A DNA stretch of 42,006 bases, from the NCBI GenBank assembly GCA_020718225.1, contig DYSO01000008.1, positions 1 to 42,006 of the forward strand, given 5' to 3'. The notes below the pieces were generated by a model. That model worked only from the letters and a program-made list of their open reading frames with translations. It was not told the origin of the DNA and searched no databases. The stretch is from Draconibacterium orientale. Lineage in GTDB: Bacteria; Bacteroidota; Bacteroidia; Bacteroidales; FEN-979. The translations under genes were made by a program, and so were the position numbers. Of the stretch, positions 1-38,324 are shown piece after piece. Position 1 is the stretch's first letter; each line of letters begins with the position of its first letter.

Positions 1-12
1 GGAATTATATAA

Positions 13-20
13 TAAATTTG
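13..20 (+). promoter_or_regulatory. -7 promoter box (TAAATTTG)
   Basis: Matches the Bacteroidota TAnnTTTG element, 67 nt before the ATG at 88 of the LPP20-like/transglutaminase pair. The -33 position would fall outside the window. Confidence 0.45.
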
Positions 21-87
21 TACAACATAAAATTTTCCGAATATTTAAAATTTTCTATTGATCATAACCCAAAAAAAACTGTCAATT

Positions 88-738
88 ATGAAAAAAGTTT
101 ACATCCTTACCGTTCTCGCCCTGTTTTTCGCAGCGGTTGCATTTGCCCAAAACACAGAAAAAGAGCAAAAAAATGATTTGAAAGAAAAAGCCATGAAATC
201 AGCCCGTCAGCAGGCTAAAGCCTATGCCAAAGACGGCTGGAAAACCATGCCCGGTTCCATTCCCATGGATAAATTACTTGAAGATGCCTGGATGAAACAA
301 ATGGCAACCGACGATAATGGCCAGCCAAAGTATATCACTGCCGACGGAAACGGTGTGGCTGAAAGCAAGTCGGTAGCCGAAGCACAGGCCATTGAATTTG
401 CAAAGCTGCAATTGGCCGGTACCATTGAATCAAATATCGCTTCTTCCATCAACGCAAACCTTGCCAATAGCCAGGAATCAACTGCGGATGCCACTTCGAT
501 AACCGAGATTGTACAATCATCGAAAAACATCATTGCCCAGCAAATGGGTTACATTAATCCCGCGTTCAAACTTTACCGCGACCTGAAGGATAAAAAAATC
601 GAAGTCCAGGTCCGTATCTTTTATGAAACCAGCCAAAGCCTGCTCATTGCCAAAAAGGCCATCCGGAAAGAGTTGAAAGAAAAATTACAAAAAACCGACG
701 AGCAGGTCGACAAACTTCTCCTTGACAATCCGAAATAA
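88..738 (+). CDS. Secreted LPP20-like protein
   Basis: The function is not established. The ORF track starts at a TTG (58), but an in-frame ATG at 88 gives a textbook signal peptide (MKKVYILTVLALFFAAVAFAQ), so I start there (216 aa). The mature part has an Ala/Lys/Glu-rich helical start, then a region about residues 85-190 (EAQAIEFAKLQLAGTIESNI..., ending in VQVRIFYETSQSLL). This resembles LPP20-type envelope proteins: a helix followed by strands, with a run of Ala-containing residues before an 'AKLQLAGTI' stretch. A related but longer LPP20-like region occurs in the gene at 4547-6082 (FAKAQLVETIRINISSS). The C-terminus is a Lys/Glu coiled-coil-like helix. The next gene begins 8 nt downstream on the same strand, so the two are probably cotranscribed from the -7 box at 13-20. 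It is likely periplasmic or outer-membrane associated; there is no lipobox Cys. Confidence 0.7.
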   Translation: MKKVYILTVLALFFAAVAFAQNTEKEQKNDLKEKAMKSARQQAKAYAKDGWKTMPGSIPMDKLLEDAWMKQMATDDNGQPKYITADGNGVAESKSVAEAQAIEFAKLQLAGTIESNIASSINANLANSQESTADATSITEIVQSSKNIIAQQMGYINPAFKLYRDLKDKKIEVQVRIFYETSQSLLIAKKAIRKELKEKLQKTDEQVDKLLLDNPK

Positions 739-746
739 CCCATCCC

Positions 747-3383
747 ATGAAAGCGAGGATTGTAGCTTTGGTTGTACTGTGTTTCCTGACAATCAGTGTT
801 TCTGCACAGATCGATTCTACTTTTGAAGAGACCCGTAAAGCGCTCCTGAGGGACATGGAGTCATTCTCCCGGGAAAACGAAGATGAATTCGAACAGTATG
901 TGGATAAAATCGATAAAGAGTTCTCCGATTATTTAAGGACTACCTGGGAGGAATTCAACCTCTTTGCCGGGATCAAGCCCGATACAACCCCAAAACCAAA
1001 AATTCTTCCGAAGTATAATCCTGCTGTTCAGAAAATCAAACCCGGGGAAATCCCACACGAAATCCCCATTCAACCCGGAATCGGGGTCCAGTTCCCGGTA
1101 ATCGCACCCATACCCAATCTCCCTGTGGAACAGAAACCGGACCAGGAACAGGCCGAAGTTCCTGTCGGGGTTACCATCGATGTTGGTTTTTATGGAATAA
1201 CCCTTGAATTTCTTACCGATCCCGGGCTTGCCGGTACCCTGCCGACAGAAATCCACAATACGACCATCGCCGATGTCTGGGACCGGCTGAACAAGACCAA
1301 ATTCACAACCCTGATTACCCAGTTTGCCGATGCACGTACACGGATGAACCTCAATGACTGGGGATATTATATGATGGTAAAAAAGAGCGCTGAGCAAATT
1401 TCATCCAACCAAAATTATGCCCGCCTGCTGACCTGGTTCCTGATGACAAAATCGGGCTACCGGGTCCGGGTGGCCTATGCGGAAAATAATATTGCCCTGA
1501 TGTTCCCTTCGGCCAATACCATTTATGGACTACGCTATTTTATGATTGACCAGACTAAATTTTATGCCCCTGATTTTCCTTATAATCAGATATATACTTA
1601 TGAGAAAGATTTTCCGGGGGCCTCCAGGGTATTTGACCTGAATGTTTATTCAGCCTTGAATATCGGCGATCAATATGGCGAGCGTCCCTTTAAATTTACT
1701 TTTCAGAATAAAGAGTACAGTTTCAATGTAAAGTATAATGTGAATTCAGTGAATTTTTACAAAGAGTTCCCGCTGTGCGAATTGAAACTCTATTTCGACG
1801 CCTCCATCAGCCCAAGTGCCAAAGAATCCCTACTGGAAGTCCTGAAGCCTCAGATGACCGGCCGTTCGGTTGCCGAATCGGTTGATTTCCTCCTGAATTT
1901 TGTTCAAAACGGATTTCCATACATGACCGACCAGGATCAGTTCAAGGGCGAAGAAAAATTCTTTTTCCCGGAAGAAGATTTTTTTTACCCCTATACCGAT
2001 TGTGACGACCGTGCCGTTCTTTTTTCATATCTTGTGAAAGAACTTTTAAAACTCAAGGTGGTTGGAGTGGTATATCCCGGCCATGTTGCTACAGCCATCC
2101 GGTTTCCAAATGAGGAACCGGGTGATTTTGTGATGTATAAAGGGGAAAAATATCTCATTGCCGATCCGACTTATATCAATGCCCCCTTCGGGCGGACCAT
2201 GCCGGGAATGGTAAATTCCAAGGCCGAGATCATCGAATTGCTCAATGAACAAAGCCAGGATGAAAGGATTACTTCCGTTTGGGAAAAAGCTGAATCCGGC
2301 GGAGGGCTGAAAGGCGATATCCGTCAAAACCTTTGCTCCGATGCCGATGGTAATTTTTATCTGACAGGATATTTCAAACAAAATGCAACTTTCGGGGGAA
2401 CAAGCCTTTCCAATAACAACGGGAAAACCGATGCCTTCCTTGTGAAATTCAACCCGGCCGGGAATCCGGTCTGGGCCATCCGGGGAGGCAGCGAAACCTC
2501 CTCCATGGGATACAATGTTACTACCGATGCCGATGGAAATATTTATGTGTGCGGCTCCTTTGAAAACGACATCTCCTTCGGTAAAATTATGACCATGGCA
2601 GAGCCGGGAACAACCCTTTTCGTTGCAAAATTTACGGGTGATGGAAAACTGTTGTGGCTCAATCAGCTCAAACCCAAAAGTACAGATTATCAGGATGATT
2701 TCATCTTTGCAGCCACCTATAACAACGCCGGGCGTTTTATTGAAACAAAATATTTTCAACCCGACGCTAATTTTACCGGGTTCGGATTAAGCTTTGACGC
2801 TGACCATAATGTTTATTATACAGCTTCCCATAGTGGTACTACCGGAATGAAAATCGACCGGCTTACCCTGAACACGAAAACCGGATTTAATCCTGTTGTC
2901 GCCCTGAAAGCAGAAACCGACAAAGAGCTTTCGGCACAATGTGAAAAGAGCATTGCAGGGCTCATGGCTGCCATAAACCTGATCCGGCTAAACAACACAA
3001 CCCTCTCAGGCAAAGAGATTCATCAGGCCTTTGACACCTATAATCCCGGCTTCAAAAAATCTGCACCCACCCTTTATACCCAGTTGGGGCGACTTCAAAT
3101 GATCAGAAACGAAGGCGGCATTGTCACCATTAAAACAACAGATGAAAAACCTGTATTGATCAATAAGTTGAAAATTGCAAACAATGCTCGGATAAAGATT
3201 GTCCCCCTGCCCAACGGAGATGCCAGAATTGAAGTCCTGAACGGCGTTACGTTTGGCAAACAGGTGACCTGGTCCAAAGTAAACTTTATACGGCTTATTA
3301 AAAAGAGCGGGAACCTTCTTATTGATTTCGACACTGACCATACACAGGCAAACTGGAAAATGAAAACAGACGTATTGTTTTAA
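747..3383 (+). CDS. Secreted transglutaminase-like protein with SBBP beta-propeller repeats
   Basis: 878 aa with a signal peptide ending about residue 21 (LTISVSAQ). After a Pro/Lys-rich spacer (about 80-140) and a large middle region comes a papain-like transglutaminase core: Cys419 in YTDCDDRAVLFSYL, His446 in YPGHVATAIRF and Asp473 in YLIADPTY form the expected Cys-His-Asp order. Residues about 515-640 carry SBBP-type propeller repeats (SDADGNFYLTGYF, TDADGNIYVCGSF, with VKFNPAGNPVW and AKFTGDGKLLW strands). A basic C-terminal domain of unknown type follows. It may be a peptidase or a protein cross-linking enzyme on envelope proteins; the substrate is unknown. It is transcribed with the LPP20-like gene 8 nt upstream. 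Its stop codon overlaps the stop of the convergent caspase gene within TTAA (3380-3383). Confidence 0.75.
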   Translation: MKARIVALVVLCFLTISVSAQIDSTFEETRKALLRDMESFSRENEDEFEQYVDKIDKEFSDYLRTTWEEFNLFAGIKPDTTPKPKILPKYNPAVQKIKPGEIPHEIPIQPGIGVQFPVIAPIPNLPVEQKPDQEQAEVPVGVTIDVGFYGITLEFLTDPGLAGTLPTEIHNTTIADVWDRLNKTKFTTLITQFADARTRMNLNDWGYYMMVKKSAEQISSNQNYARLLTWFLMTKSGYRVRVAYAENNIALMFPSANTIYGLRYFMIDQTKFYAPDFPYNQIYTYEKDFPGASRVFDLNVYSALNIGDQYGERPFKFTFQNKEYSFNVKYNVNSVNFYKEFPLCELKLYFDASISPSAKESLLEVLKPQMTGRSVAESVDFLLNFVQNGFPYMTDQDQFKGEEKFFFPEEDFFYPYTDCDDRAVLFSYLVKELLKLKVVGVVYPGHVATAIRFPNEEPGDFVMYKGEKYLIADPTYINAPFGRTMPGMVNSKAEIIELLNEQSQDERITSVWEKAESGGGLKGDIRQNLCSDADGNFYLTGYFKQNATFGGTSLSNNNGKTDAFLVKFNPAGNPVWAIRGGSETSSMGYNVTTDADGNIYVCGSFENDISFGKIMTMAEPGTTLFVAKFTGDGKLLWLNQLKPKSTDYQDDFIFAATYNNAGRFIETKYFQPDANFTGFGLSFDADHNVYYTASHSGTTGMKIDRLTLNTKTGFNPVVALKAETDKELSAQCEKSIAGLMAAINLIRLNNTTLSGKEIHQAFDTYNPGFKKSAPTLYTQLGRLQMIRNEGGIVTIKTTDEKPVLINKLKIANNARIKIVPLPNGDARIEVLNGVTFGKQVTWSKVNFIRLIKKSGNLLIDFDTDHTQANWKMKTDVLF

Positions 3384-4540
3384 TCTTTTTTATAATTGAC
3401 TACGCAGGTTTGGTCCTTGACAACGACTACTTCTCTTTTAACAATGGTTGGCCCGTAAAACTGGAGTTTATGTTTGCCAACAGGTATGTTAAAAAAAAGG
3501 ACGGTTGCATTTGCAACAATGGTCTGAAAAAAGACGTCATCTACATAAAGATCGCCGGTATATTCTGAAAACACCTTCAGCTCGCCGGTTTCAGTGACAG
3601 GTTCGGTTTTTTTCGGTACAACTACGGGCGCAGGAGTTTGCTTTGCAACAGGTTTTTCGGTTTGAGCCTGATGATCCGTTCCGGTCACAGGCAATGCAAA
3701 AATAAAATCGCCTTTATCAAGATTTGGGTTCCTGATTTTTCCGAACTGTGGATGTTGTGTTTCATAGGAATAGTTGATCACCCTGTATTGAAGAAATGTT
3801 CCCAGCTCCGTGCCGGTGACGCATCCATCCTTATCAATATCCGCCTCCCCGTCGAGCGCTGACAGGAACTGGGCACAAAAGATACTTTTATCCGGGACCT
3901 GTTCATCGGCGGTCCCGCTGGTTATGAATTCCCTGACAGGGAGCAGTGCTTTTTCGTTCAGGGGCAAAGGCAGCGCCATCCCTGTTGCAAACAAAGAACC
4001 TGAAAAGCAGGCATCGAACAGGAACAATACATGTTTTGCCTTAATTCGTTTGGTATAAATATCGATCTGCGACATCTCCATGGCCATATTCTGAAAGCCA
4101 ATGGGATCGCGGGCCGGGTTAGGGGCATTGACCGGGACAATATAACCCAGCTCTTCGCCAAGCTTTGTTTTGATGGTATATCCATGACCTGCAAAATAAA
4201 AAAGCAGGCGGGTTTCAGTATCCTGTCCATACCGATTAATAAAATCAGAAAAAGCGTTATCCAGTTCCTCCAGCGTTGGGTCAAGGATGAGGGTCACCCT
4301 GAAACCATGGTCTTCCAACGACTGTTTCACGTTCGCCATATCCATACTGACGCCTGGCAATGGAGGTAACCCATTCTGATAATTGGTGACGCCCACAACG
4401 AGGGCAAAACTGCGTTGATAGGCAGTAATGGTTTTCCCTTTAATCCTGACCATGATCGGACGGTCATCAAGTTGCGCAAATACCGGATTGCTGAAAATAT
4501 AGATCAGAATTGACAGCATTGGGATAAATCTTGTGAACAT
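3380..4540 (-). CDS. Exported caspase-family (C14) protein with C-terminal PEGA-like domain
   Basis: 386 aa with signal peptide MFTRFIPMLSILIYIFSNPVFAQ. A caspase/metacaspase-like domain covers about residues 42-285: ALVVGVTNY first strand, catalytic His119 in FYFAGHGY and catalytic Cys178 in FLFDACFSGS. Inside the domain, residues 234-245 (DIDKDGCVTGTE) form a complete EF-hand calcium loop with ligands at positions 1, 3, 5 and 12. A Pro/Lys/Thr linker (about 285-318) leads to a small beta domain (320-383, GELKVFSEYTGDLYVDDVFF) resembling PEGA domains. The catalytic domain is a close paralogue of the one at 6088-7920; both share VPDKS, GEAD and NLDKGDF blocks. It is the last gene of a three-gene unit with 6 nt and 5 nt spacings. 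Bacterial caspase homologues generally cleave after Arg/Lys; that specificity here is inferred. Confidence 0.85.
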   Translation of the reverse strand: MFTRFIPMLSILIYIFSNPVFAQLDDRPIMVRIKGKTITAYQRSFALVVGVTNYQNGLPPLPGVSMDMANVKQSLEDHGFRVTLILDPTLEELDNAFSDFINRYGQDTETRLLFYFAGHGYTIKTKLGEELGYIVPVNAPNPARDPIGFQNMAMEMSQIDIYTKRIKAKHVLFLFDACFSGSLFATGMALPLPLNEKALLPVREFITSGTADEQVPDKSIFCAQFLSALDGEADIDKDGCVTGTELGTFLQYRVINYSYETQHPQFGKIRNPNLDKGDFIFALPVTGTDHQAQTEKPVAKQTPAPVVVPKKTEPVTETGELKVFSEYTGDLYVDDVFFQTIVANATVLFFNIPVGKHKLQFYGPTIVKREVVVVKDQTCVVNYKKD

Positions 4541-4546
4541 CCGGTA

Positions 4547-6082
4547 TTATTTTTCTGCCAGGGTGGTAAGGTTGAGCCGTTTTTCCGCGATCAATTCTGT
4601 TTTTCCGATTGTTTTCATTCCACGAACATTGGCCAGGATGGCGCCAACATCGTCAAGGATCATCTGATAACCATTCTCCAACCGGATTGTCAGTGGTTTA
4701 AATGGGTTGGTCTGGGCGATCATCTGGATGGTTTCCGCCCCGAAAGGGGCATCACAAACAAAAACATCGGGGAGTAAAATGGGCTGGTTTGTTTTATCCT
4801 CTCCAATGTACCTGCTATCGGCCAGTAGTGTTTTTGTGCCATCCGAGAAATAATAAATAAGACGGATATAACAAGGTTGGTCCACCCTCACATATACCCG
4901 CATGGTATCGCCACGGGTAAAGATGGGATTATCCTTACCTCTGTTTGTCCATAAGTCGGCAAAAAGGCCACCACCGGTAATTTCATTTTGGGAGAATTGT
5001 TTCTGCCGGGCGAGGGCCTGGTCGTAATTTTCTGCGATATACCTCACCGAATTATCCGTAAACCACTGCTGGGGAAGAAATTCCTCAACTCCGGCGATGT
5101 TCCTGCCTGTCTTCAAATCGGTTAAATTTGCAATGATTTTGATGCTTCCTCCCTCTTTCCAATAGGTTCCGGATAAGAGATATCCGGCGCTATCGGGTTC
5201 TTTTAAACCGCGGTATAATGTTTCAGAAGATTTTAAAGCAAAACCCTGACGGATGATTTTTTGTTCAAGAGTGGAGGCAAGCCGTGATGAAAAGTCACTC
5301 CCGATACGGGTATCCTGAAATGTAAAAGATCCTATCCGGATGGCGTCGTCAAGTGAATTGCCGGAAAGCTGTTGCTTGAATCCATCTGCCATCAGAAAGC
5401 AAACCTCATCCAGGGTATTGTGTTTTTCTTTTCTCAGATTACTGATTCTTTGATTGATCAGGAATTCATAATCAACCGGTTGTTCCGGTAACGGTTCCTT
5501 CCCGATGGCCACAAGGATGGCTTCATTGTTTTCGATCTCCCGGAGCAGGGGAAAACAGTTATAAAATGTCTTCAACGCCTGTTCCACATCACCCGTTTTT
5601 ACAAAGTTATCACCGGATTCGATTTTCCTCTTTAACTGCGATGAATTGTCGGCCAGATTTGCCTTACAAGCGTCCAAAAGATCGGTAATCCGGATATAGG
5701 CATAGGCATAGACTGCTTTTTTTTTCGGGTCGAACCAGGTTTCCGATTTCAACCCCGAAAGTTGGGCTTCAGAAGTGGAGACACTGGCTTGTTTAAAATG
5801 TTCAAGCGATTCTGAATTGAGGTTTTCCAGATTTAATGTCGCTGAACTCGAAATATTGATCCGGATGGTTTCAACCAATTGTGCTTTTGCAAAACCGAGA
5901 TGTTTCTGACGCAGTTCATCGGTATTGACTGATTTTTTTACGATCTCAGATGAAAATCCGGTAAGGTAGATATTGTCGGGGTATTGGGACTTTCTTTTTT
6001 CCGGGTCGGTCCAAGAGGGGGACTGTGAATATCCACTGATGCCGGATAACAGCAGGATAATAAGAACAATGCTATTTCTCAT
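4547..6082 (-). CDS. Secreted LPP20 - FlgO/CsgG-like - DUF4384 protein
   Basis: 511 aa with a signal peptide of about 20 residues (LLLSGISGYSQ). Three parts can be read. The first is an LPP20-like domain (about 20-135) beginning PSWTDPEKRKSQYPDNIYLTGF and ending in AYAYIRITDLLDACK. The second is a middle region (about 215-345) with the alternating pattern of FlgO/CsgG/LpoB-type outer-membrane accessory domains (IGSFTFQDTRIGSDFSSRLA, GYLLSGTYWKEGGSIKIIANL, DLKTGRNIAG). The third is a C-terminal DUF4384-like beta domain (about 375-490: FTRGDTMRVYVRVDQPCYIRLIYYF). DUF4384 domains are often found fused to or beside caspase domains, and here the gene lies between two caspase genes. The role is probably structural or regulatory at the envelope, not catalytic. 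The middle-domain assignment is my weakest. Confidence 0.7.
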   Translation of the reverse strand: MRNSIVLIILLLSGISGYSQSPSWTDPEKRKSQYPDNIYLTGFSSEIVKKSVNTDELRQKHLGFAKAQLVETIRINISSSATLNLENLNSESLEHFKQASVSTSEAQLSGLKSETWFDPKKKAVYAYAYIRITDLLDACKANLADNSSQLKRKIESGDNFVKTGDVEQALKTFYNCFPLLREIENNEAILVAIGKEPLPEQPVDYEFLINQRISNLRKEKHNTLDEVCFLMADGFKQQLSGNSLDDAIRIGSFTFQDTRIGSDFSSRLASTLEQKIIRQGFALKSSETLYRGLKEPDSAGYLLSGTYWKEGGSIKIIANLTDLKTGRNIAGVEEFLPQQWFTDNSVRYIAENYDQALARQKQFSQNEITGGGLFADLWTNRGKDNPIFTRGDTMRVYVRVDQPCYIRLIYYFSDGTKTLLADSRYIGEDKTNQPILLPDVFVCDAPFGAETIQMIAQTNPFKPLTIRLENGYQMILDDVGAILANVRGMKTIGKTELIAEKRLNLTTLAEK

Positions 6083-6087
6083 GGGAT

Positions 6088-7920
6088 TTATTCTTCTCTG
6101 ACAATTCGAAAACCAACATCTGAATAGGTTGCATTGGGTTTGATCCCACGGCGGAATGTAACTTTCAATGTCCCAGGTTTATTCATCCAGCTTCCGCCGC
6201 GGGCCACGCGAAGTTCACCCTGGATAGGCCCGGTGGGATCGGAGGTGGGGCTTACCTGGTAATATTTCGGATTGAACCAATCGCTGCACCATTCCAATAC
6301 ATTTCCACTCATATCATAAATACCCAGCTCATTGGGTTGTTTTTGGCCAACCGGATGGGTTGTTTTTTTTGCGTTCATCACGTACCAGCCCGTCGCATTG
6401 ACATCTTTTCCACCCGCATAGGGCCAATTCATGGTTTTATTCCCGCCCTGAGCTGCATATTCCCATTCCGCTTCGGTAGGTAACCTGTATTTTTTTCCTG
6501 TTTTCTGATTCAATGCATTAAGAAATGACTGAACCTCCTCCCAGCTGACCCGTTCCACGGGGCAATCATCACAATTTTGAAAACCGCTGGGATTTGATCC
6601 CGTAATTGCTTTCCACTGTTTCTGAGTCACTTCAAATTTTCCGATATAGAAACTTTTCAAGGTTACGGGATGTTCCGATACCATTGCTGTCGATCCCAGA
6701 CGAGGGGCGCCTGGCCGGGGAAAACCTCCCGGTGAGGGCGGCCCCGATACTTTTTCCCCCATGTTGAAAGTACCTCCCTGGACATATACCAACGGGAGAA
6801 AATCGTCGCTGTCATGGATGGGCTCCTTTGATGTGGGCTCAGCGGCAACGATAACCGGAGGCGGAGCCTCTGTTTTTTGTGGTTTCTCCTTCCCCTTTTT
6901 CTTCGATTGTTTGGTCGCAGGAGGGGTTGATGAAACCGGTTTTTCAGTCTGATTTGTGATCGGTGTTGCGACTGGGTTTTCTGCGGATTTCACCGGCTGG
7001 GAGACGGAAGTCTCTCTGTCGGCCAATTCCGGTTTGGCAGCCGTTGCCCCACCCGAAGAGACGGCGCTGCCCGGGATCGGGAAAACAAAATCGCCTTTAT
7101 CCAGATTTGGGCTCCTGATTTTTCCATATTGAGGATGTTGCGAATTTTTGGAATAGTTCACAACAGAGCTTTGTAAAAAATCGCCCAATTCGCTTCCGGT
7201 CACATAGCCATCTTTGTCTCCATCGGCCTCTCCACCGATAGCTCTGACAAATTGTTCACCAAAAACACTTTTATCCGGGACCATCTCTTCGGCGCTGCCG
7301 CTGGTTATGAATTGCCGTACCGGTAAAGTCGTTTTATAATTAATGATGGCAGGCACGGCCCGTGTACTGGTGAACAGAGATCCGGAAAAACAGGCGTCGA
7401 AAAGAAAAATAGCATGTTTGGCCTGAAGGCGCCGCGCATATATTTCAATCTGGGCCATTTCCATCGACTGGCTTTGAAATTTGGCCAGGTCATAATTGGG
7501 ATTGGGTGCGTCAACCGGGACAATATATCCCAGTTCTTCCCCGTAATTTGTTTTGACGGTATAGCCATGGCCGGCGAAATAAAACAAAAGACGGTTATCA
7601 ACAACCTGTCCGTTTTTCGAAATAAAATCGGTAAAAGCCTTGTCGAGTTCCGACTTGTCAGGATCCATAACCACCTCAACTTTAAAACCATTTTTCTCCA
7701 GTGCGGTTTTTACTGTTTTAACTTCATCTTTAACCCCTGGTAACTGAGACCATCCGTTTGAATATTCAGAAACCCCGATGATTAAAGCATAACTGCCCTG
7801 ATAAAGTGTGGTAGGTTTCCCATCAACCGGTATCTCCACCGCTTTCATTCCCCGGTCCTGGGCTTTCAAGCCCATTCCAAAGAATATAAAAATCAATAGA
7901 AGGGAAATATTCGTTTTCAT
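6088..7920 (-). CDS. Exported caspase fused to FGE-sulfatase (SUMF1)-like domain
   Basis: The ORF is open to 8094, but that extension overlaps the divergent pyrK. The ATG at 7920 starts a proper signal peptide (MKTNISLLLIFIFFGMGLKAQ), giving 610 aa. The caspase domain (about 40-283) has His118 (FYFAGHGY), Cys177 (LFDACFSGS) and an EF-hand loop at 233-244 (DGDKDGYVTGSE). The linker (about 284-370) is Pro/Thr-rich with a Lys cluster (KQSKKKGKEKPQK, about 337-349). The C-terminal domain (about 375-610) is SUMF1/FGE-like: GGTFNMGE, RLPTEAEWEYAAQGG, DMSGNVLEWCSDW, RVARGGSW and VGFRIVRE. The two active-site cysteines of true formylglycine-generating enzymes are absent (GGSWMNKPGTLKV), so this is probably a binding module. 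It is the first gene of its unit, with a -7 box at 7966-7973. Confidence 0.85.
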   Translation of the reverse strand: MKTNISLLLIFIFFGMGLKAQDRGMKAVEIPVDGKPTTLYQGSYALIIGVSEYSNGWSQLPGVKDEVKTVKTALEKNGFKVEVVMDPDKSELDKAFTDFISKNGQVVDNRLLFYFAGHGYTVKTNYGEELGYIVPVDAPNPNYDLAKFQSQSMEMAQIEIYARRLQAKHAIFLFDACFSGSLFTSTRAVPAIINYKTTLPVRQFITSGSAEEMVPDKSVFGEQFVRAIGGEADGDKDGYVTGSELGDFLQSSVVNYSKNSQHPQYGKIRSPNLDKGDFVFPIPGSAVSSGGATAAKPELADRETSVSQPVKSAENPVATPITNQTEKPVSSTPPATKQSKKKGKEKPQKTEAPPPVIVAAEPTSKEPIHDSDDFLPLVYVQGGTFNMGEKVSGPPSPGGFPRPGAPRLGSTAMVSEHPVTLKSFYIGKFEVTQKQWKAITGSNPSGFQNCDDCPVERVSWEEVQSFLNALNQKTGKKYRLPTEAEWEYAAQGGNKTMNWPYAGGKDVNATGWYVMNAKKTTHPVGQKQPNELGIYDMSGNVLEWCSDWFNPKYYQVSPTSDPTGPIQGELRVARGGSWMNKPGTLKVTFRRGIKPNATYSDVGFRIVREE

Positions 7921-7965
7921 ATCAAGTCCGGATTTTTGTTGTGAACTATATTGTTTGTCAAGATT

Positions 7966-7973
7966 CAAAGATA
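7966..7973 (-). promoter_or_regulatory. -7 promoter box (TATCTTTG)
   Basis: On the - strand, 45 nt before the ATG at 7920 of the caspase-FGE gene, so it would drive the three-gene caspase unit. No clear -33 TTG at the expected distance. Its presence argues against the longer ORF start at 8094. Confidence 0.45.
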
Positions 7974-8035: not shown

Positions 8036-8815
8036 ATGATTTTTAAAAAAAATATCGCAGATTTAACTGTTGTCCGGAATACCCGTTTCAACAATCGTTA
8101 TTTCATGCTTGATCTTCAGGCGGAAGAACCTTTTTCGGTAATCCTGCCCGGACAGTTTGTTCAGGTACTCGTGGCAGGTTCTCCATCAACGTTTCTTCGC
8201 CGTCCGTTTTCCATTCATTCTGTCGATTTCGCCAGCAGGCGTCTCCGGCTGCTGATCCAGATCAAAGGGGAAGGGACGCGGCATCTGTCATTATTAACAG
8301 AAGGCGCGAAACTCAATGTGATCTATCCGCTGGGAAATTCATTTTCCTTACCCGTAACAAAAAAAGTACTACTGGTTGGCGGAGGGTGTGGCGTTGCCCC
8401 TTTACTCTTTCTTGCGCAGTTTCTCAATCAGCAACATATTCAACCAGTCATTCTGATCGGGTTCCGTACCCGTTCAGAGATGTTTGAAATAGAGGAATAT
8501 TCAAAATTCGGCCAGCTTCTGATCACCACGGATGATGGTACGGCAGGGGAAAAAGGCCTGGTTGTTGATCATTCCCTGTTCCAGAAAGAGAGACTGGATT
8601 TTGGAAAAATTTATTGTTGCGGGCCCGTCCCGATGATGCAATCTGTTGCCCGCATCGCGCAATGGCATAAGGTCGATTGCGAAGTTTCGCTTGAAAATAC
8701 GATGGCTTGCGGTTTCGGGGCATGCCTTTGCTGTATCACCCCAACCGATAGAGGCAATGAGCGGGTGTGTATGGAAGGGCCTGTCTTTAACACGAAAAGA
8801 CTCAAATGGCTATGA
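8036..8815 (+). CDS. pyrK: Dihydroorotate dehydrogenase B, electron transfer subunit
   Basis: 259 aa, the usual length. An N-terminal ferredoxin-reductase-type FAD domain carries RRPFSIHS (residues 55-62). A nucleotide-binding domain follows ([16 protein letters not shown], then CCGPVPMM). The C-terminal [2Fe-2S] site has cysteines 225, 230, 233 and 245 ([10 protein letters not shown] ... ERVCMEG), in the C-x4-C-x2-C-x11-C arrangement of PyrK. It passes electrons from the catalytic PyrD subunit to NAD+ in pyrimidine synthesis. The stop codon overlaps the likely pyrD start as ATGA. A TAnnTTTG box lies 22 nt upstream, in the intergenic region shared with the divergent caspase operon. Confidence 0.95.
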
Positions 8816-9739: not shown

Positions 9740-12295
9740 ATGAAGAACAAAATATTTCGCATCGTTACTTATGCCTTCCCTGCGGTTCTGGCTTTAACTT
9801 TAGCCGGTTATTTTATTATTACCATATTCCCGGCGCCCAAAACCTCCCCATCCACTCCCTGGGTTAAACCCGATCTGGAACCCAACGACTGGATGGCCAT
9901 GCAGCGGGCCTATCCGTACGGGCAAATCAATCCTTCATCTTATCTGAACGCGGTTCAACAAACCGACGCCCTGATGAAACAAGGGAGCAGCCGTCCAAAT
10001 TCATGGACTTATGCCGGGCCCGACAATATCGGTGGCAGAATAACCGATATTGAAATTCCTTCTGACAACCCTTCGGTCATCTACCTTGGGGCTTCCACCG
10101 GGGGTGTTTTAAAATCGACAAACGCCGGAGCCACTTGGGTCAATCTTTTTGATGATGTCCCGGTCATCTCTGTCGGTGATATTGCCATTGACCCCAACAA
10201 CAGCCAGGTGATCTGGTGTGGTACCGGTGAAGCAAACTCCTCCAGTTTCAGCTTTCTGGGAAACGGTATCTACAAATCGACCGATGGCGGTGAAAACTGG
10301 CAACACACCGGGTTGACCCATTCTGCTTATATCGGAAGGATTGTCGTCGATTATTCCAATTCAGACCGTATTTTTGCCGCAGCCTGCGGAAACCTGTTCA
10401 CCACCAATGATGAACGGGGTATATACCGAAGCGTGAATGGTGGGCAGAGTTGGGAGCAGGTACTTTTTTTAACCGATTCTACTTCGGGCATCGACCTGGT
10501 GCAACACCCCGTCAATCCACAGATATTATATGCAGCCATGTGGGAAAGGGCACGTGGTTTATCCTATCGCCGATCATTCGGCGCTTCCTCTGGCATCTGG
10601 AAAAGCATCGATGGCGGGGATACCTGGAGTGAGCTTACATCCGGACTTCCTACAGGCAACACCAAAGGAAGGATTGGGCTGGACATTGCCGCTTCGAATC
10701 CCGAGATCCTGTACGCTTTTTATGACCTGCCCGATGGTGAAGTAGGCGTCTATAAAACCTTAAACGGAGGACAATCCTGGTCCCGGACAAACGATGGCGC
10801 CCTGGCGGGAATGAACAGTAATTTCGGATGGTATTTCGGCCAGATCAGGGTCGATCCTTCAAACTCAAACCGGGTTTTTGTCATGGGTGTCGATATGTTT
10901 AGGAGCGAAAACAGTGGCACAAGCTGGAGTAATGTTTCGGGTTGGGATATGCATGTGGACCATCATGCCATGCAGATAAACCCCCTGAATGGCTCTATCA
11001 TTACCGGGAATGACGGAGGGTTGTACACCAGCGCAAACCATGGGTCAAGCTGGACCAAAATCAACAACCTGCCTCTGACACAGTTCTATGCCATTGATAT
11101 TGATTATCTCCATCCACAAAGAATATATGGAGGTACTCAGGACAACAATACGATCCGGACATTGACAGGCGGTACCAGTGACTGGGAGGCAATCCTGGGA
11201 GGTGACGACATGTACACGTTGGTTGATTATACCAATTCCAATACAATTTATGCTGAATATCAATGGGGAAACCTTTACCGTTCGACCAACGGAGGTTCAA
11301 ATATGACCTATATAGCCGATGCGATGTCGGGCGATCGCGTCAACTGGTCAGCGCCTCTTGCCATGCATCCCCAAAATTCGTCGATTCTCTATTTCGGGAC
11401 CTACCGAATTTGGAAATCAACCAATAAAGGAACATCGTGGCAGGCTGTCAGCCCCGATTTAACCGGAGGGGTCAACGACTATTTCTATACCATCACCACC
11501 ATCGCGGTTTCCCCGGTTGATCCGGCCATTGTTGTGGCTGGTACCGGCGATGGGAAGGTACACGTTTCTGTCAACAACGGACTGACATGGCAGAATATTT
11601 CCAACGGACTGCCCAACCGTTGGATCACAAGGGTGGTACCCAGTCCGTTTAACTCCCAAACCATTTATGCAACAATCTCCGGATTTCGTTGGGATGAGCC
11701 GCTTCCACATGTTTTTAAATCGGTGGACCTGGGACAGAATTGGACGGAAATCACAGGGAACCTTCCGGAATTCCCGGTCAACGATCTTGTCATTGACCCT
11801 GATTTTCCGGGAAGGATCATCGTGGCTACCGATGCTGGTTTATTCGGCACCATCGACGATGGACAAAACTGGGCATGGATATGGCATGGATTGCCCGCCG
11901 TCCCCGTTTGTGCACTCAAAGTACATCTGCCGACAAGGACAATCGTTGCAGGGACTTACGGATTATCCTGTTTTAAAGCCAGCCTTGATGAAATCCTGAC
12001 AGGGATTGTACCCTCCGGAAACCGGGAGAAAATTGCCATTTCCGTTTCCCCGAATCCTGTGTTGAATGAAGCTTCCGTCCTGTTTTATTTACCACAAAAG
12101 GAACAAATCAGGATTAAACTCTTCAATATTAAAGGAGCGTTGATTAAAACAATCAATTGCGGGGCCTTATTACAAGGCCGGCATCAAATTCCGATAAATA
12201 ATAATTCCTTTGATGATAATTCTTCCAGTGGCATCTACCTCCTTGTAATAGAAGGAGATAATTTCATTGGTTCAACAAAAGTCGTCAGGATATAA
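9740..12295 (+). CDS. Sortilin/VPS10-like Asp-box beta-propeller protein, T9SS cargo
   Basis: 851 aa. The N-terminus has a basic start and a long hydrophobic segment (FPAVLALTLAGYFIITIF) acting as signal peptide or anchor. Residues about 85-745 contain roughly a dozen Asp-box/BNR units of the form [YFW]-K-S-x-[DN]-x-G-x-x-W, for example YKSTDGGENWQHTG, YRSVNGGQSWEQV, WKSIDGGDTWSEL, YKTLNGGQSWSRT, WKSTNKGTSWQAV and FKSVDLGQNWTEI. This pattern is typical of VPS10/sortilin-like or sialidase-like propellers. I see no sialidase Arg triad arrangement. Residues about 765-851 form a type A T9SS sorting domain (VSPNPVLNEASV, GIYLLVIEG, ending KVVRI). It is therefore predicted to cross the outer membrane by the Por system and be surface-attached or released. 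It begins 13 nt after pyrD, so read-through from pyrKD is possible. Confidence 0.85.
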   Translation: MKNKIFRIVTYAFPAVLALTLAGYFIITIFPAPKTSPSTPWVKPDLEPNDWMAMQRAYPYGQINPSSYLNAVQQTDALMKQGSSRPNSWTYAGPDNIGGRITDIEIPSDNPSVIYLGASTGGVLKSTNAGATWVNLFDDVPVISVGDIAIDPNNSQVIWCGTGEANSSSFSFLGNGIYKSTDGGENWQHTGLTHSAYIGRIVVDYSNSDRIFAAACGNLFTTNDERGIYRSVNGGQSWEQVLFLTDSTSGIDLVQHPVNPQILYAAMWERARGLSYRRSFGASSGIWKSIDGGDTWSELTSGLPTGNTKGRIGLDIAASNPEILYAFYDLPDGEVGVYKTLNGGQSWSRTNDGALAGMNSNFGWYFGQIRVDPSNSNRVFVMGVDMFRSENSGTSWSNVSGWDMHVDHHAMQINPLNGSIITGNDGGLYTSANHGSSWTKINNLPLTQFYAIDIDYLHPQRIYGGTQDNNTIRTLTGGTSDWEAILGGDDMYTLVDYTNSNTIYAEYQWGNLYRSTNGGSNMTYIADAMSGDRVNWSAPLAMHPQNSSILYFGTYRIWKSTNKGTSWQAVSPDLTGGVNDYFYTITTIAVSPVDPAIVVAGTGDGKVHVSVNNGLTWQNISNGLPNRWITRVVPSPFNSQTIYATISGFRWDEPLPHVFKSVDLGQNWTEITGNLPEFPVNDLVIDPDFPGRIIVATDAGLFGTIDDGQNWAWIWHGLPAVPVCALKVHLPTRTIVAGTYGLSCFKASLDEILTGIVPSGNREKIAISVSPNPVLNEASVLFYLPQKEQIRIKLFNIKGALIKTINCGALLQGRHQIPINNNSFDDNSSSGIYLLVIEGDNFIGSTKVVRI

Positions 12296-22231: not shown

Positions 22232-24289
22232 TTATCGGACCGGTAAAAAAGAGAACTTTTCGGAATAATCGAGCATCTGACCGGTATAATCGTCCGGATA
22301 GGAGATCAGGATATCCGTGATGGTATCCGCTTTGATTACCTGTGTATAAACCGGGTTGATAAATCCCGTGTAGGGGGCGATATTCAGTTTCTCATAACGT
22401 TCCAGGATTTCCTTATGAAGGATTGGATCCACTTTGATTCCATAGGTTTCCACAAGCTCTTTGGCAGCCTGATAATCACCTTCAGAAGTAATCCGTTGCA
22501 CGATATTCAGCAATTCACCGAATTTTTCACGAAGTTTATCATAATCGTTAATCCTGAAATAGGTTTTCCCCTCTTTTGAAACTTTCTCAATGATGTTATC
22601 CGCTTTCCCTTTTTCATAAACCCAGTGAGCTATCAATGAACGGTCGCGCATGTGGGCCTGCTCAATCGTTTTTCCGGGTTTGATGCGGACCAGTTGGGTC
22701 ATCAATCCATTTCGGATGTAACCGTCATATTCGGCTTTTGCAACCTCTGCATCGGGGATCAACCCCAAAGTTATCATTACAGTGTCTTTCAGATAATAGA
22801 GGGCAAAAAGGTCGGCGCGTGATTCTTCGATGGCAGAATGGAAATTTTTGAGGGCCTCCCCGGTAATCCCGGGTTTGAGTTGTCCTGAACCATGACCAAG
22901 ACATTCATGAAGATCGGTAGTCAGATTGCCTGCCAGGTGACCATATTTTTTAGCCCGGTCAATCTCCTCCTGACTGAAAGCAAACTCTTCGATGAACCCG
23001 TTTCCAAGGGAAGCCTGGTCATAAGCATAGGTTATGTTGTCCATGGTCACCGACTTTGACCCGTACTCTTTTCTAATCCAGTTGGCATTGGGCAGGTTGA
23101 TACCGATGGGGGTCGTTGGATAACAATCGCCCCCGAGTTGTGCAACGGTAATGACTTTTGCCGAAACACCCTTAACTTTTTTCTTCCGGTACTCGGGCGC
23201 CACCGGTGAGTGGTCCTCGAAATACTGGGCGTTGCTGCTGATTATCTGAGTCCTCTTTGTGGCTTCAATATCTTTAAAATTAACCACCGATTCCCAGGTT
23301 GCCTTCATGGCCATTGGATCGCCATAAACTTCGATAAAACCATTGACAAAATCCACCCGTGAATCGTCGGTGACCCAGGCGATGTTGTATTTGTCCCAGG
23401 TCACAAGATCCCCCGTTTGATAATAGCGAATCAGTTCTTCGATGACCTTTTTCTGGTGCGGCGATTCGGCTACTGTGGCTGCTTTTTCGAGCCAGGAAAC
23501 GATTTGCACGATAGCAGGCGAATACAAACCTCCAACCCGGTAAGTTTGCTCCGAAATTTCTCCGTTTTCCCGGATCAGTTTGGAATTCAAACCATAAGCA
23601 ACCCTCAGATCCCTTCGCTGTTTTGCATCCTCCTTTTTCCGATTGTCATAATAGTTTTCAACATCGGCCTGATTGACCCCTTCATAGAAATTGACAGCGG
23701 ACGCCAGCACCATATCCGTTGAAGGGTCCAATGTCAAACGCTTTGGGGCAATGGTCCCATCAAAAATCAAGGGAGAAACCTCAGCAATAAATGCTTCGGT
23801 CGATTGTCCCTCATTCATGGGTATAAGCTCTTTTCCGGTTCCCTGAACCAGGATTTGAAAATAAGCAGGTGAAAACCCGGGCGTTAGTTTATCGGCAGAA
23901 TTATGGTGATGGATCCCGTTACAAAACCATATTTGCTTTAGATAAACCACAAAATTTTTAAAATCTTCTGTCTCCTTATCTCCCGTATAACCCTTGTAAA
24001 TCGCCTCCAATGTTTTCCGGATCAGCAGGTTGTACTTATAGTTCTGATCAAAGGTAATATCCCGTCCGCATAAAGCAGCCTGTCCCAGATAATAAACCAG
24101 TTTTTTCTGGTCAAGCGAAAGGCTGTCAAAGCCGGGGACCTGGTACCGCAATATTTTGGAATCGGCAAACTGCTCCACCAATACCTTAAACTCTTTTTCT
24201 TCCGTTGCTTCCTTCTTAATTCCGCCCGGATTGCATGAAGATATAATAATTGCTGTCGCCATGATAAAAAAAGTGCTGAGTTTATTCAT
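22232..24289 (-). CDS. Dipeptidyl peptidase III (M49), lipoprotein form
   Basis: 685 aa zinc exopeptidase that removes dipeptides from N-termini. Zn site: His461-Glu462-...-His466 in LHECLGHGSGQ (HExxGH, with the HECLGH variant usual in Bacteroidota) and Glu489 in IEESRADLFAL. The family region TQLVRIKPG...AHMRDRSLIAHWVYEKG is also present. The N-terminus MNKLSTFFIMATAIIISSCNPGG has a lipobox Cys (about residue 19), so it is predicted to be membrane-anchored rather than cytosolic. Downstream the M23 gene begins after 3 nt; upstream the ComB-like gene ends 33 nt away. Confidence 0.92.
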   Translation of the reverse strand: MNKLSTFFIMATAIIISSCNPGGIKKEATEEKEFKVLVEQFADSKILRYQVPGFDSLSLDQKKLVYYLGQAALCGRDITFDQNYKYNLLIRKTLEAIYKGYTGDKETEDFKNFVVYLKQIWFCNGIHHHNSADKLTPGFSPAYFQILVQGTGKELIPMNEGQSTEAFIAEVSPLIFDGTIAPKRLTLDPSTDMVLASAVNFYEGVNQADVENYYDNRKKEDAKQRRDLRVAYGLNSKLIRENGEISEQTYRVGGLYSPAIVQIVSWLEKAATVAESPHQKKVIEELIRYYQTGDLVTWDKYNIAWVTDDSRVDFVNGFIEVYGDPMAMKATWESVVNFKDIEATKRTQIISSNAQYFEDHSPVAPEYRKKKVKGVSAKVITVAQLGGDCYPTTPIGINLPNANWIRKEYGSKSVTMDNITYAYDQASLGNGFIEEFAFSQEEIDRAKKYGHLAGNLTTDLHECLGHGSGQLKPGITGEALKNFHSAIEESRADLFALYYLKDTVMITLGLIPDAEVAKAEYDGYIRNGLMTQLVRIKPGKTIEQAHMRDRSLIAHWVYEKGKADNIIEKVSKEGKTYFRINDYDKLREKFGELLNIVQRITSEGDYQAAKELVETYGIKVDPILHKEILERYEKLNIAPYTGFINPVYTQVIKADTITDILISYPDDYTGQMLDYSEKFSFLPVR

Positions 24290-36212: not shown

Positions 36213-38126
36213 TTAATATTTCATGAATTTCTGAGTAAGCTGGCCTCCTGATTTTCCATAGAATGTAATGAAATACATACCATTGGAGAGGTCGGAAACC
36301 TCAATGGTTTTCTTTCCGGTACCAAGGTTATCCATGCGGATTACTTCCTGTCCGACCATATTTGTGATAACAACCTGGGTCAGGTCAGTTGAAGTAACAA
36401 CATTCAGCATATCCATAACCGGGTTCGGATAGGTTTGGATTTTGCCTGCCAATGGATTTTCGTTCATCCCTTCGGGGTATTTTAATCCCCATTTAAGGGC
36501 GAAGGTTGTATCCTGACGAATGGTGTAAACTCTATTGGGATCGCCGGTCCATTCGCCGCCATCCCAGCCGGCGCCTTTGAAGAATTTAAGTTGATAGATA
36601 CCGATGGAGTCAAGGGTCATGACAATTGTATAGATGGAATCGGTAAGGGGTTCAACAGCAGTAAGCATGTTGTTTAAATTGTCGCCAGGCGTATTCCAAG
36701 TTCCATATATACCGCCAAAATTACCGGCAACATAAACATCTTCCCCGGCAAGTCCGGAACCCTTCATATTAAGGTTAAAAGTTACATTGGCCGGCTTTTT
36801 GCCCCATTTGTAAAGGAAGTCGCCTTCACCTGTAATGGTGATTTTCCGGTTTGGATCGCCGTTCCATTCGCCGCCATCCCAGCCGGCGCCTTTGAAGAAT
36901 TTAAATTGATAATTTCCTTCCAGCAAATTCATAACGACCGTATAAACAGAATCGCCATCGAGGTCAAAAAGTTCATTTTCCGGATTTGTTCCCGGTGCGT
37001 TCCAGGTGCCATAGATGCCACCAAAATCGCCGGCAAAATAAACGGGTTCATCCAGAAGGAGCCCTGAACCGTGCATATCAACACTCAGGCTGATCTCCAC
37101 GCCGGGTGGAGGAGGGGCAACGTTATCCAACACAATATTGTCGAAATAGATAACGATATCTTCTGTCAGGCCAACGGGTTCAATTTTGTCGGGCATAAAA
37201 GCAATAACCTGGTAGTCGTTCCCGGTTTTTTCTGTAAAATCGAAGGTATAGTTTTCCCAGGCGTTAATAACAGTTTGTTCATAAACGGAGGGAATTTCAA
37301 GGTTACCGGCAGCGCCCCCTTCAATTTTGAAATATACGGGGCTGATACGGGGTTTCCATACGTCAACGTGGATGAATTTGTTGGTAGTTACATCATACGG
37401 TTCCGGTAAACGCGACCAGAAACCGCCCCATACAACGCCATCCATATCGCGGAGGAATTTTACAACCCAGTTGCTTTCGTTTCCAACAAGGTCTGGATTG
37501 GGGACAACGCACATGGAGCTCATGTCGATCGCCGGGTCGCCAAGCATGATGTTCAGGTCAATAAGTTCCTCAAAATCTTCCATTACAATAACCGGGTCAG
37601 AGAAGGGGGTAGGATCGTTGTTTACATACATATCATCAAAATAGATGGTGATGTTTTCCGTAAGGGTCAGTGGGTCTTCAAAATCGGGCATAAAAGCAAT
37701 GATGGGATAAGCTCCGGTAAAAGCGCTGACGTCGAATACAATGTCTTCCCACTCATCAACCAAAGTCTGGGGGTTCATAGGGTTAAACTCCTGGGTCCCT
37801 GAGGGGCCGCCTTCCAATTTGAACTTGATCGGGCTGATCCGGGGTTTCCAGACTTTCACATGGACATAATGGTTGTCGGTTACATCAATGGGAACAGGCA
37901 AAGAGCACCAGAAACCGCCCCATGGGTTCCCGTTATAAACGCGGTCCATTTTTCCAACCCAACGGCTTGGGTTCGTTACTGTGTTAACATCCGGATTGGG
38001 TATGGCACTATAAGTACTTGGATCCATACCATTCATCGGAATAATCTCGAAATCAGCAAGGACCTGGGCCCTGGATAATCCGGCCATGGACAGTAACATA
38101 ATAAAAATGAGTAAGTTTCTTTTCAT
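36213..38126 (-). CDS. T9SS-secreted protein with duplicated carbohydrate-binding-like domains
   Basis: The ORF is open to 38219, but the ATG at 38126 starts the signal peptide MKRNLLIFIMLLSMAGLSRAQ; product 637 aa. Two N-terminal repeats (about 22-185 and 190-340) share WGGFW-S-LP-P-DVT, the block VWKPRISP, and IAFMPD. Two further repeats (343-446 and 447-555) share YFAGDFGGIYGTWN / YVAGNFGGIYGTWN and QFKFFKGAGWDGGEW, resembling starch-binding-like beta sandwiches. Residues about 563-637 form a type A T9SS sorting domain (YPNPVMDMLNV, GMYFITFYG). No catalytic domain was seen, so it is probably a surface carbohydrate- or ligand-binding protein. A 41-bp exact repeat sits in the DNA of the second pair. 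Bidirectional terminator follows. Confidence 0.82.
   Translation of the reverse strand: MKRNLLIFIMLLSMAGLSRAQVLADFEIIPMNGMDPSTYSAIPNPDVNTVTNPSRWVGKMDRVYNGNPWGGFWCSLPVPIDVTDNHYVHVKVWKPRISPIKFKLEGGPSGTQEFNPMNPQTLVDEWEDIVFDVSAFTGAYPIIAFMPDFEDPLTLTENITIYFDDMYVNNDPTPFSDPVIVMEDFEELIDLNIMLGDPAIDMSSMCVVPNPDLVGNESNWVVKFLRDMDGVVWGGFWSRLPEPYDVTTNKFIHVDVWKPRISPVYFKIEGGAAGNLEIPSVYEQTVINAWENYTFDFTEKTGNDYQVIAFMPDKIEPVGLTEDIVIYFDNIVLDNVAPPPPGVEISLSVDMHGSGLLLDEPVYFAGDFGGIYGTWNAPGTNPENELFDLDGDSVYTVVMNLLEGNYQFKFFKGAGWDGGEWNGDPNRKITITGEGDFLYKWGKKPANVTFNLNMKGSGLAGEDVYVAGNFGGIYGTWNTPGDNLNNMLTAVEPLTDSIYTIVMTLDSIGIYQLKFFKGAGWDGGEWTGDPNRVYTIRQDTTFALKWGLKYPEGMNENPLAGKIQTYPNPVMDMLNVVTSTDLTQVVITNMVGQEVIRMDNLGTGKKTIEVSDLSNGMYFITFYGKSGGQLTQKFMKY
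36549..36589. repeat. 41-bp exact direct repeat, copy 1
   Basis: Identical to 36864-36904, 315 bp away (105 codons, the domain period). It encodes the KFFKGAGWDGGEW block of the second carbohydrate-binding-like domain. Confidence 0.9.
36864..36904. repeat. 41-bp exact direct repeat, copy 2
   Basis: Second copy of the repeat at 36549-36589, in the preceding domain of the same gene. Surrounding codons differ, so the identity is local. Confidence 0.9.
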
Positions 38127-38167
38127 AATTTTACATTTTTTAGTGAATAATACCATTTTTTGATTTC

Positions 38168-38175
38168 CAAAGATA
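38168..38175 (-). promoter_or_regulatory. -7 promoter box (TATCTTTG)
   Basis: On the - strand, 41 nt before the ATG at 38126 of the T9SS cargo gene. It supports that start over the longer ORF reaching 38219. No clear -33 element. Confidence 0.42.
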
Positions 38176-38324
38176 ATACAAATACTTTTATTATGCTGAT
38201 TTTTTTTTGTAAAAATCACTTTTTTTCAACTTTTTTATTGCCTGTTTTGAACCTGAGTTGCCCCATCCTCAATCCTTTCAGTTTCGCTGTCAGGTTCGCC
38301 GATTGATTTGAAATCCGTTTTTTT

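Follow-up and report, generated by a model that had tools for sequence, protein, structure and literature searches.

Five adjacent genes at the start of a contig of Draconibacterium orientale (DYSO01000008.1, positions 1 to 42,006; this whole stretch of 42,006 nucleotides is referred to as the window) encode exported proteins, two of which are caspase relatives. The cluster is a genuine conserved set and no chance neighbourhood. It consists of two parts, a widespread exported core of an LPP20-family protein and a transglutaminase-like (TG) protein, and a unit of caspases with an LPP20-FlgO-DUF4384 (LFD) protein, or with a lectin-fold protein, that is joined to this core. What caspase relatives do in bacteria has long been debated, usually in terms of cytoplasmic programmed cell death. 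The cluster points to caspase relatives acting in the envelope, a setting in which they have received little study.

The window is the entire contig C140 of a source genome of 3.27 Mb in 275 contigs, and its base 1 is the contig end (G000:C140:1). Translation and coordinates bear out the arrangement described in an initial annotation of this DNA, with two forward genes converging on three reverse genes between positions 88 and 7920:

88..738, forward strand: LPP20-like exported protein, 216 amino acids (aa), beginning with the ATG at 88, with a Q-rule signal peptide (see below) and without a lipobox.
747..3383, forward strand: TG protein, 878 aa, exported, with a putative transglutaminase-like cysteine-protease fold (C419/H446/D473), an SBBP beta-propeller and a C-terminal domain.
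3380..4540, reverse strand: caspase-PEGA-like protein, 386 aa, an exported orthocaspase with an EF-hand-type loop and a C-terminal PEGA-like domain.
4547..6082, reverse strand: LFD protein, 511 aa, exported, composed of a putative LPP20 domain, a helical (TPR-like) spacer, a putative FlgO/LpoB-like domain and DUF4384.
6088..7920, reverse strand: caspase-FGE, 610 aa, an exported orthocaspase with an EF-hand-type loop, a linker and a C-terminal FGE-like lectin-fold domain.
3380..3383, no strand: 4-bp overlap between the stop codons of the forward and reverse units, which converge equally tightly in loci L026, L027 and L028.

The genes are separated by gaps of 8 bp on the forward strand and 5-6 bp on the reverse strand. 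The start of the caspase-FGE gene is the ATG at 7920, and a longer form from a TTG at 8094 is unnecessary.

The neighbourhood, whose absence from related genomes would have counted as a refutation by the terms of the initial annotation, is conserved. The named relatives are uncultured Bacteroidales metagenome-assembled genomes from lakes and other habitats. A second species (G024; L026/L106) carries all five genes at 57-73% identity, in the order and orientation of the window and between other flanks. Another genus (G041; L027/L108) also has all five, with the LFD and caspase-PEGA genes swapped and an ATPase-like gene inserted. Partial forms of the cluster occur in G036, G019, G021, G026 and G037; G026 resembles the window in that its caspase-FGE gene diverges from the same dihydroorotate-dehydrogenase-subunit-like gene (259 aa, the window copy being recognized through Pfam). 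Within the Flammeovirgaceae, caspase, LPP20, LFD and TG genes stand side by side in L172 and L176.

Outside the family, a near-full-length TG protein was found in approximately 30 of the 393 genomes of the order. With caspases counted across whole genomes, seven of these 30 have a caspase gene no more than 10 kb from the TG gene, against 0.33 expected (Poisson P=6e-8), and the association holds when reduced to five independent cases (P=2.5e-5). Similarly, five of 17 LFD genomes have a caspase near the LFD gene, against 0.35 expected (P=3e-5). A chance grouping of common envelope genes of Bacteroidota would fit the frequency of exported proteins in general (210 of 545 neighbouring open reading frames (ORFs) have a Q-rule-like start) and the patchiness of the module. 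Set against the recurrence of the same arrangement amid other flanks and in other genera, and the statistical enrichment (P=1e-5 to 6e-8), this explanation is barely credible.

The two-part structure emerges from 52 well-flanked TG loci. An LPP20-like gene lies within 2.5 kb of the TG gene in 32 of them (it directly adjoins the TG gene in L026, L027, L029, L066 and others) and a caspase gene within 10 kb in 18, leaving 34 of the 52 caspase-free. A second TG operon of the source genome (L082; G000:C249:1-8047) is the standard Bacteroidales form, encoding an LPP20-like protein, X350, a TG protein (37% identity) and P255, with no caspase. The TG/LPP20 pair is no dedicated pair of caspase substrates, because it is usually found without a caspase. 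The caspase/LFD unit also stands alone: a second operon in the same genome (L010; G000:C160:8429-11968) encodes a caspase-FGE with a PEGA-like segment and an LFD protein (42% identity), on a 12-kb contig without a TG gene.

The DUF4384-type LFD follows the caspase, being present at nine of the 18 caspase-bearing TG loci and at none of the 34 caspase-free ones (Fisher P=1.3e-5). A like bias was seen for the partner family Z270 (9/18 versus 1/34 TG loci; P=1e-4), an exported protein whose versions in the source genome carry fused domains of the FGE-like or Fib_succ_major type. The caspases themselves fall into at least six architectures at TG loci: caspase-FGE, caspase-PEGA-like, CARDB-caspase, WD40-caspase, caspase-Fib_succ_major and Glucodextran_B-caspase. 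Since caspases of at least six architectures have been recruited to these loci, a functional tie explains the repeated recruitment better than one inherited block.

Both window caspases match Pfam Peptidase_C14 (PF00656; 69.1 and 67.2 bits, cut-off 21.4) and retain the AGHG and DACFSG motifs, which are invariant across 11 related caspases, as is the catalytic dyad itself (H119/C178). The intact His/Cys dyad reported earlier is therefore confirmed for the pair. In the acidic pocket for a basic P1 residue, D176 is invariant and the D67 column, which aligns with an Asp of MALT1 paracaspase, holds D or E in 11/11 caspases. An EF-hand-type loop (DxDxDGxVxGxE) lies downstream of the catalytic domain in every caspase with an FGE-like or PEGA-like domain, and the Pfam EF-hand model gives weak scores on eight of the 11. 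These sequence features suggest that both caspases are Arg/Lys-specific and supported by calcium.

The domains attached to the caspases are a less complete fit to their initial labels. Caspase-FGE matches Pfam FGE-sulfatase (157.9 bits), but the catalytic Cys pair of FGE is absent from the domain, RGGSWMNKPGTLKV aligning to RGGSYLCHDSYC of bacterial FGE (6muj), and related FGE-like sequences likewise lack the pair. Formylglycine-generating activity was rejected on this ground, and the domain is better read as a putative lectin-fold binding domain. Identity with GldK/PorK was also rejected (NCBIfam TIGR03525, 98 bits against a cut-off of 350). For the caspase-PEGA label, Pfam upholds the caspase half; PF08308 did not match the window protein and reached only E=0.11 in one of 11 caspases, so that ‘PEGA-like’ is a description by inspection. 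Several unrelated arrangements also have exported caspases that are either paired with or fused to an FGE-like or Fib_succ_major domain (L013 3532-4449, L014 6542-7567 and L130 13491-14996). Two genomes of the order, G058 and G208, have unusually high numbers of caspase genes (23 and 14).

The catalytic triad of the TG protein (C419/H446/D473) is invariant in 100 of the 100 TG homologues covering all three positions. In the predicted structure (pLDDT 72, pTM 0.44) the propeller matches CylK, which was also the only hit of a PDB sequence search with the TG profile, again over the propeller part. The best solved match to the TG domain is LapG (4u65; Foldseek E=0.017, probability 1.00, target TM 0.50), and Foldseek also weakly matches 3isr, a putative cysteine protease from Cytophaga. 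In a profile comparison, the TG Cys falls on that of a protein with a canonical transglutaminase core encoded in the same genome (hhalign E=0.024). A degenerate repeat, with a second, inactive TG-like copy at approximately positions 200-275, was set aside as weakly supported (hhalign E=0.02). The transglutaminase-like label is thus carried by the triad and by fold comparison; Pfam leaves the protein below its cut-offs, with one relative matching a transglutaminase-like model at E=0.09. By analogy with LapG, the TG protein is most likely a LapG-type cysteine protease rather than a cross-linker. An MltC-like lytic transglycosylase has an N-terminal segment resembling that of a TG protein in L144.

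A low-confidence linker joins the N-terminal helices to the TG domain, and its position 130 is K or R in 83 of 101 homologues. This residue, together with the tight linkage between caspase and TG genes, itself conserved, would suit the zymogen cascade proposed in the initial annotation, in which the caspases directly cut and activate the LPP20 and TG proteins. However, a Pro comes directly after K130 in the window protein, as it does in 22 of the 101 homologues, the residue is conserved even at loci with no caspase nearby, and the TG/LPP20 pair mostly occurs without caspases. The cascade is accordingly regarded as distinctly unlikely. Neither K130, with its adjacent Pro in the window protein, nor K83, with a Pro on either side, was accepted as evidence of cleavage. 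The linker, otherwise variable, contains a conserved P-x-[IVL]-x-K motif (A3 positions 126-133).

The 216-aa forward-strand protein is unmatched by the LPP20 model (PF02169), which does match a 221-aa relative in L172 (30.8 bits, cut-off 25.9); a transitive link ties the window protein to the family of that relative. It has no lipobox, its leader ending in FAQ with no Cys, and relatives such as those in L133 and L147 have ...AC/SC. Among the domain labels given to the LFD protein, DUF4384 is upheld by Pfam (30.6 bits, cut-off 27). The LPP20 and FlgO assignments are putative and drawn from relatives and fold, with no Pfam match in the window proteins: PF02169 and PF17680 match LFD relatives only (two of nine for LPP20, one of nine for FlgO), and the LFD model (pLDDT 75) resembles HP1454 (4kzs) and LpoB (4q6l), with fold matches at E=1.5e-4 and 4.9e-4. 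PDB sequence searches with the LFD and LPP20 profiles gave nothing useful. By analogy with LPP20/LpoB proteins, LFD may be a scaffold between the outer membrane, the peptidoglycan and the caspases.

Each of the five proteins starts with a hydrophobic leader, and a Gln comes directly after its signal-peptide site (FAQ, SAQ, FAQ, YSQ and KAQ), in keeping with the export that the initial annotation had assigned to all of them. A Gln after the cleavage site is the Bacteroidetes ‘Q-rule’ for substrates of signal peptidase I (PMC5837995). A simple Q-rule pattern is present in 93/104 TG, 20/21 LFD and 37/44 caspase sequences, the failures including several incomplete sequences, compared with 210/545 of the other neighbouring ORFs. 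The type IX sorting domain (Por_Secre_tail) did not match any of the five, and type IX secretion was rejected as their route. The most economical location for the five proteins would be periplasmic or on the outer membrane's inner face. Elsewhere in the window, a protein encoded at 36213-38219 has a type IX sorting domain above the cut-off (44.9 bits), and one at 9740-12295 combines sortilin/BNR repeats with a weak type IX sorting domain below it (21.0 bits). Such proteins suggest, from their sequences, that the organism has type IX secretion.

These observations bear on the proposal that the exported caspases serve scavenging or self-defence by digesting foreign or damaged proteins on the surface of the cell, with the LPP20, LFD and TG genes serving envelope maintenance and being co-regulated only. 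Gingipains are clan CD proteases able to digest foreign and surface proteins, and the lectin-fold FGE-like or Fib_succ_major domains on or beside the caspases would suit the binding of surface or foreign material. The lack of a type IX sorting domain on all five proteins, though another window protein has one, and the specific tracking of the caspase by the DUF4384-LFD make this proposal unlikely.

The reading preferred here, held tentatively at a little under an even chance, is that of an exported module, periplasmic or associated with the outer membrane, which combines the LPP20/TG envelope core with a calcium-loaded caspase/LFD unit that would exert proteolytic control over an envelope assembly. 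The forward unit would comprise the LPP20-family protein and the TG protein acting as a LapG-type protease, with the propeller for binding. In the reverse unit, two Arg/Lys-type orthocaspases would be tethered by the lectin-fold FGE-like domain and the PEGA-like domain, and the LFD scaffold could connect them to the outer membrane and peptidoglycan. The EF-hand loops may keep the caspases competent in a calcium-rich periplasm. Once the lectin, PEGA and DUF4384 domains have bound, as tethers or sensors, the caspases would cut envelope or surface proteins; their targets possibly include the TG protein’s assembly, or cutting may release it. The reading thus presumes active, calcium-dependent proteases, a physical assembly and substrates for it. 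A possible but doubtful account is an extracytoplasmic pathway in which the exported, calcium-loaded caspase pair, held at the envelope by an LPP20-LpoB-DUF4384 scaffold and by lectin/PEGA-like domains, would switch a LapG-like TG/LPP20 envelope machine.

Several points weigh against the module as an envelope control unit. The TG-fold evidence is modest, as given above, with no Pfam score over the cut-off, and no conserved caspase cleavage site was found in the TG linker. Caspases occur at only about a third of the well-flanked TG loci, LFD is sporadic (8/43 genomes of the family) and most LFD genomes lack an adjacent caspase. Metagenome-assembled genomes supply all the data, and the locus statistics assume independent loci, which phylogenetically they are not in full.

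Caspase-triggered controlled death from the periplasm, in response to calcium influx or envelope damage, would make the cluster a lysis module for development or envelope stress. Cell death is a frequent theme in discussions of bacterial caspases (PMC3501461), and an MltC-like lytic transglycosylase (~400 aa) accompanies a caspase and LFD in L130 and TG/LPP20 in L141 and L144. The window module, however, has no lysin or toxin, the lytic transglycosylase is absent there, and PADLOC yields a generic caspase model only, leaving lysis a slim chance. An anti-phage defence system was rejected on the same PADLOC result.

Two possible promoter elements flank the cluster, both of them suggestive only:

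13..20, forward strand: possible Bacteroidota -7 promoter element TAAATTTG, upstream of the LPP20-like gene.
7966..7973, reverse strand: possible Bacteroidota -7 promoter element TATCTTTG, upstream of the caspase-FGE gene.

The -7 element has 40 matches across the window against 33 expected by chance, Sigma-70 type promoter matches do not exceed the chance level, and no Rfam RNA element was matched within the window. A protein of Peptidase family M49 (dipeptidyl peptidase III-like) is encoded at 22232-24289.

The conserved exported double-caspase unit provides defined candidate envelope partners, through which a role outside the cytoplasm can be tested directly. LPP20-FlgO-type DUF4384 proteins, found at TG loci only beside caspases, gain an initial context from it, as does a large, undescribed exported TG-like family with an intact triad that is spread over the Bacteroidales. 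No published description of the LPP20/TG/LFD/caspase association was found in the literature outside subscription journals and preprints.

The closest known counterparts of the LFD protein are LPP20/HP1454 of Helicobacter and the outer-membrane proteins FlgO, FlgP and LpoB, as LFD appears to unite an LPP20 domain with a FlgO/LpoB-type domain. Unlike these, the window copies carry signal peptidase I signals and no lipobox, LFD adds DUF4384, and there are no flagellum genes nearby. Among transglutaminase homologues, HvyA of Caulobacter is not known to be linked to a caspase. HvyA has an envelope role, restricting capsulation, and is likened to the TG protein by description (PMC4241560). LapG of the Lap adhesin system is periplasmic and has a transglutaminase fold, which the TG protein probably shares, and a Cys-His-Asp triad like that of the TG protein (PMC3032545, PMC4359373). 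The TG protein is larger than LapG, with a helical segment at the N-terminus, a propeller and an additional domain at the C-terminus. A LapD/LapA partner was not seen, and Pfam detects no sequence similarity.

Exported bacterial caspases have precedent: a 2012 survey recorded 46 caspase sequences whose single N-terminal helix might serve as a signal peptide, along with 16 caspase operons of cell-surface function (PMC3501461). Multi-caspase operons were also noted there, and FGE-sulfatase fusions made up 4.9% of the set (PMC3501461). Alphaproteobacterial pseudo-orthocaspases that contain a trypsin-like domain are mentioned as having a C-terminal DUF4384 (PMC6426788). Orthocaspases (Peptidase_C14, MEROPS C14B) share with the window caspases the p20 fold, His/Cys dyad, acidic pocket, EF-hand-type loop and FGE-sulfatase fusion (PMC3501461; PMC6426788). 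Those described are mostly cytoplasmic or unlocalised, whereas the window pair is exported and tied to LPP20/FlgO/DUF4384 and TG envelope proteins.

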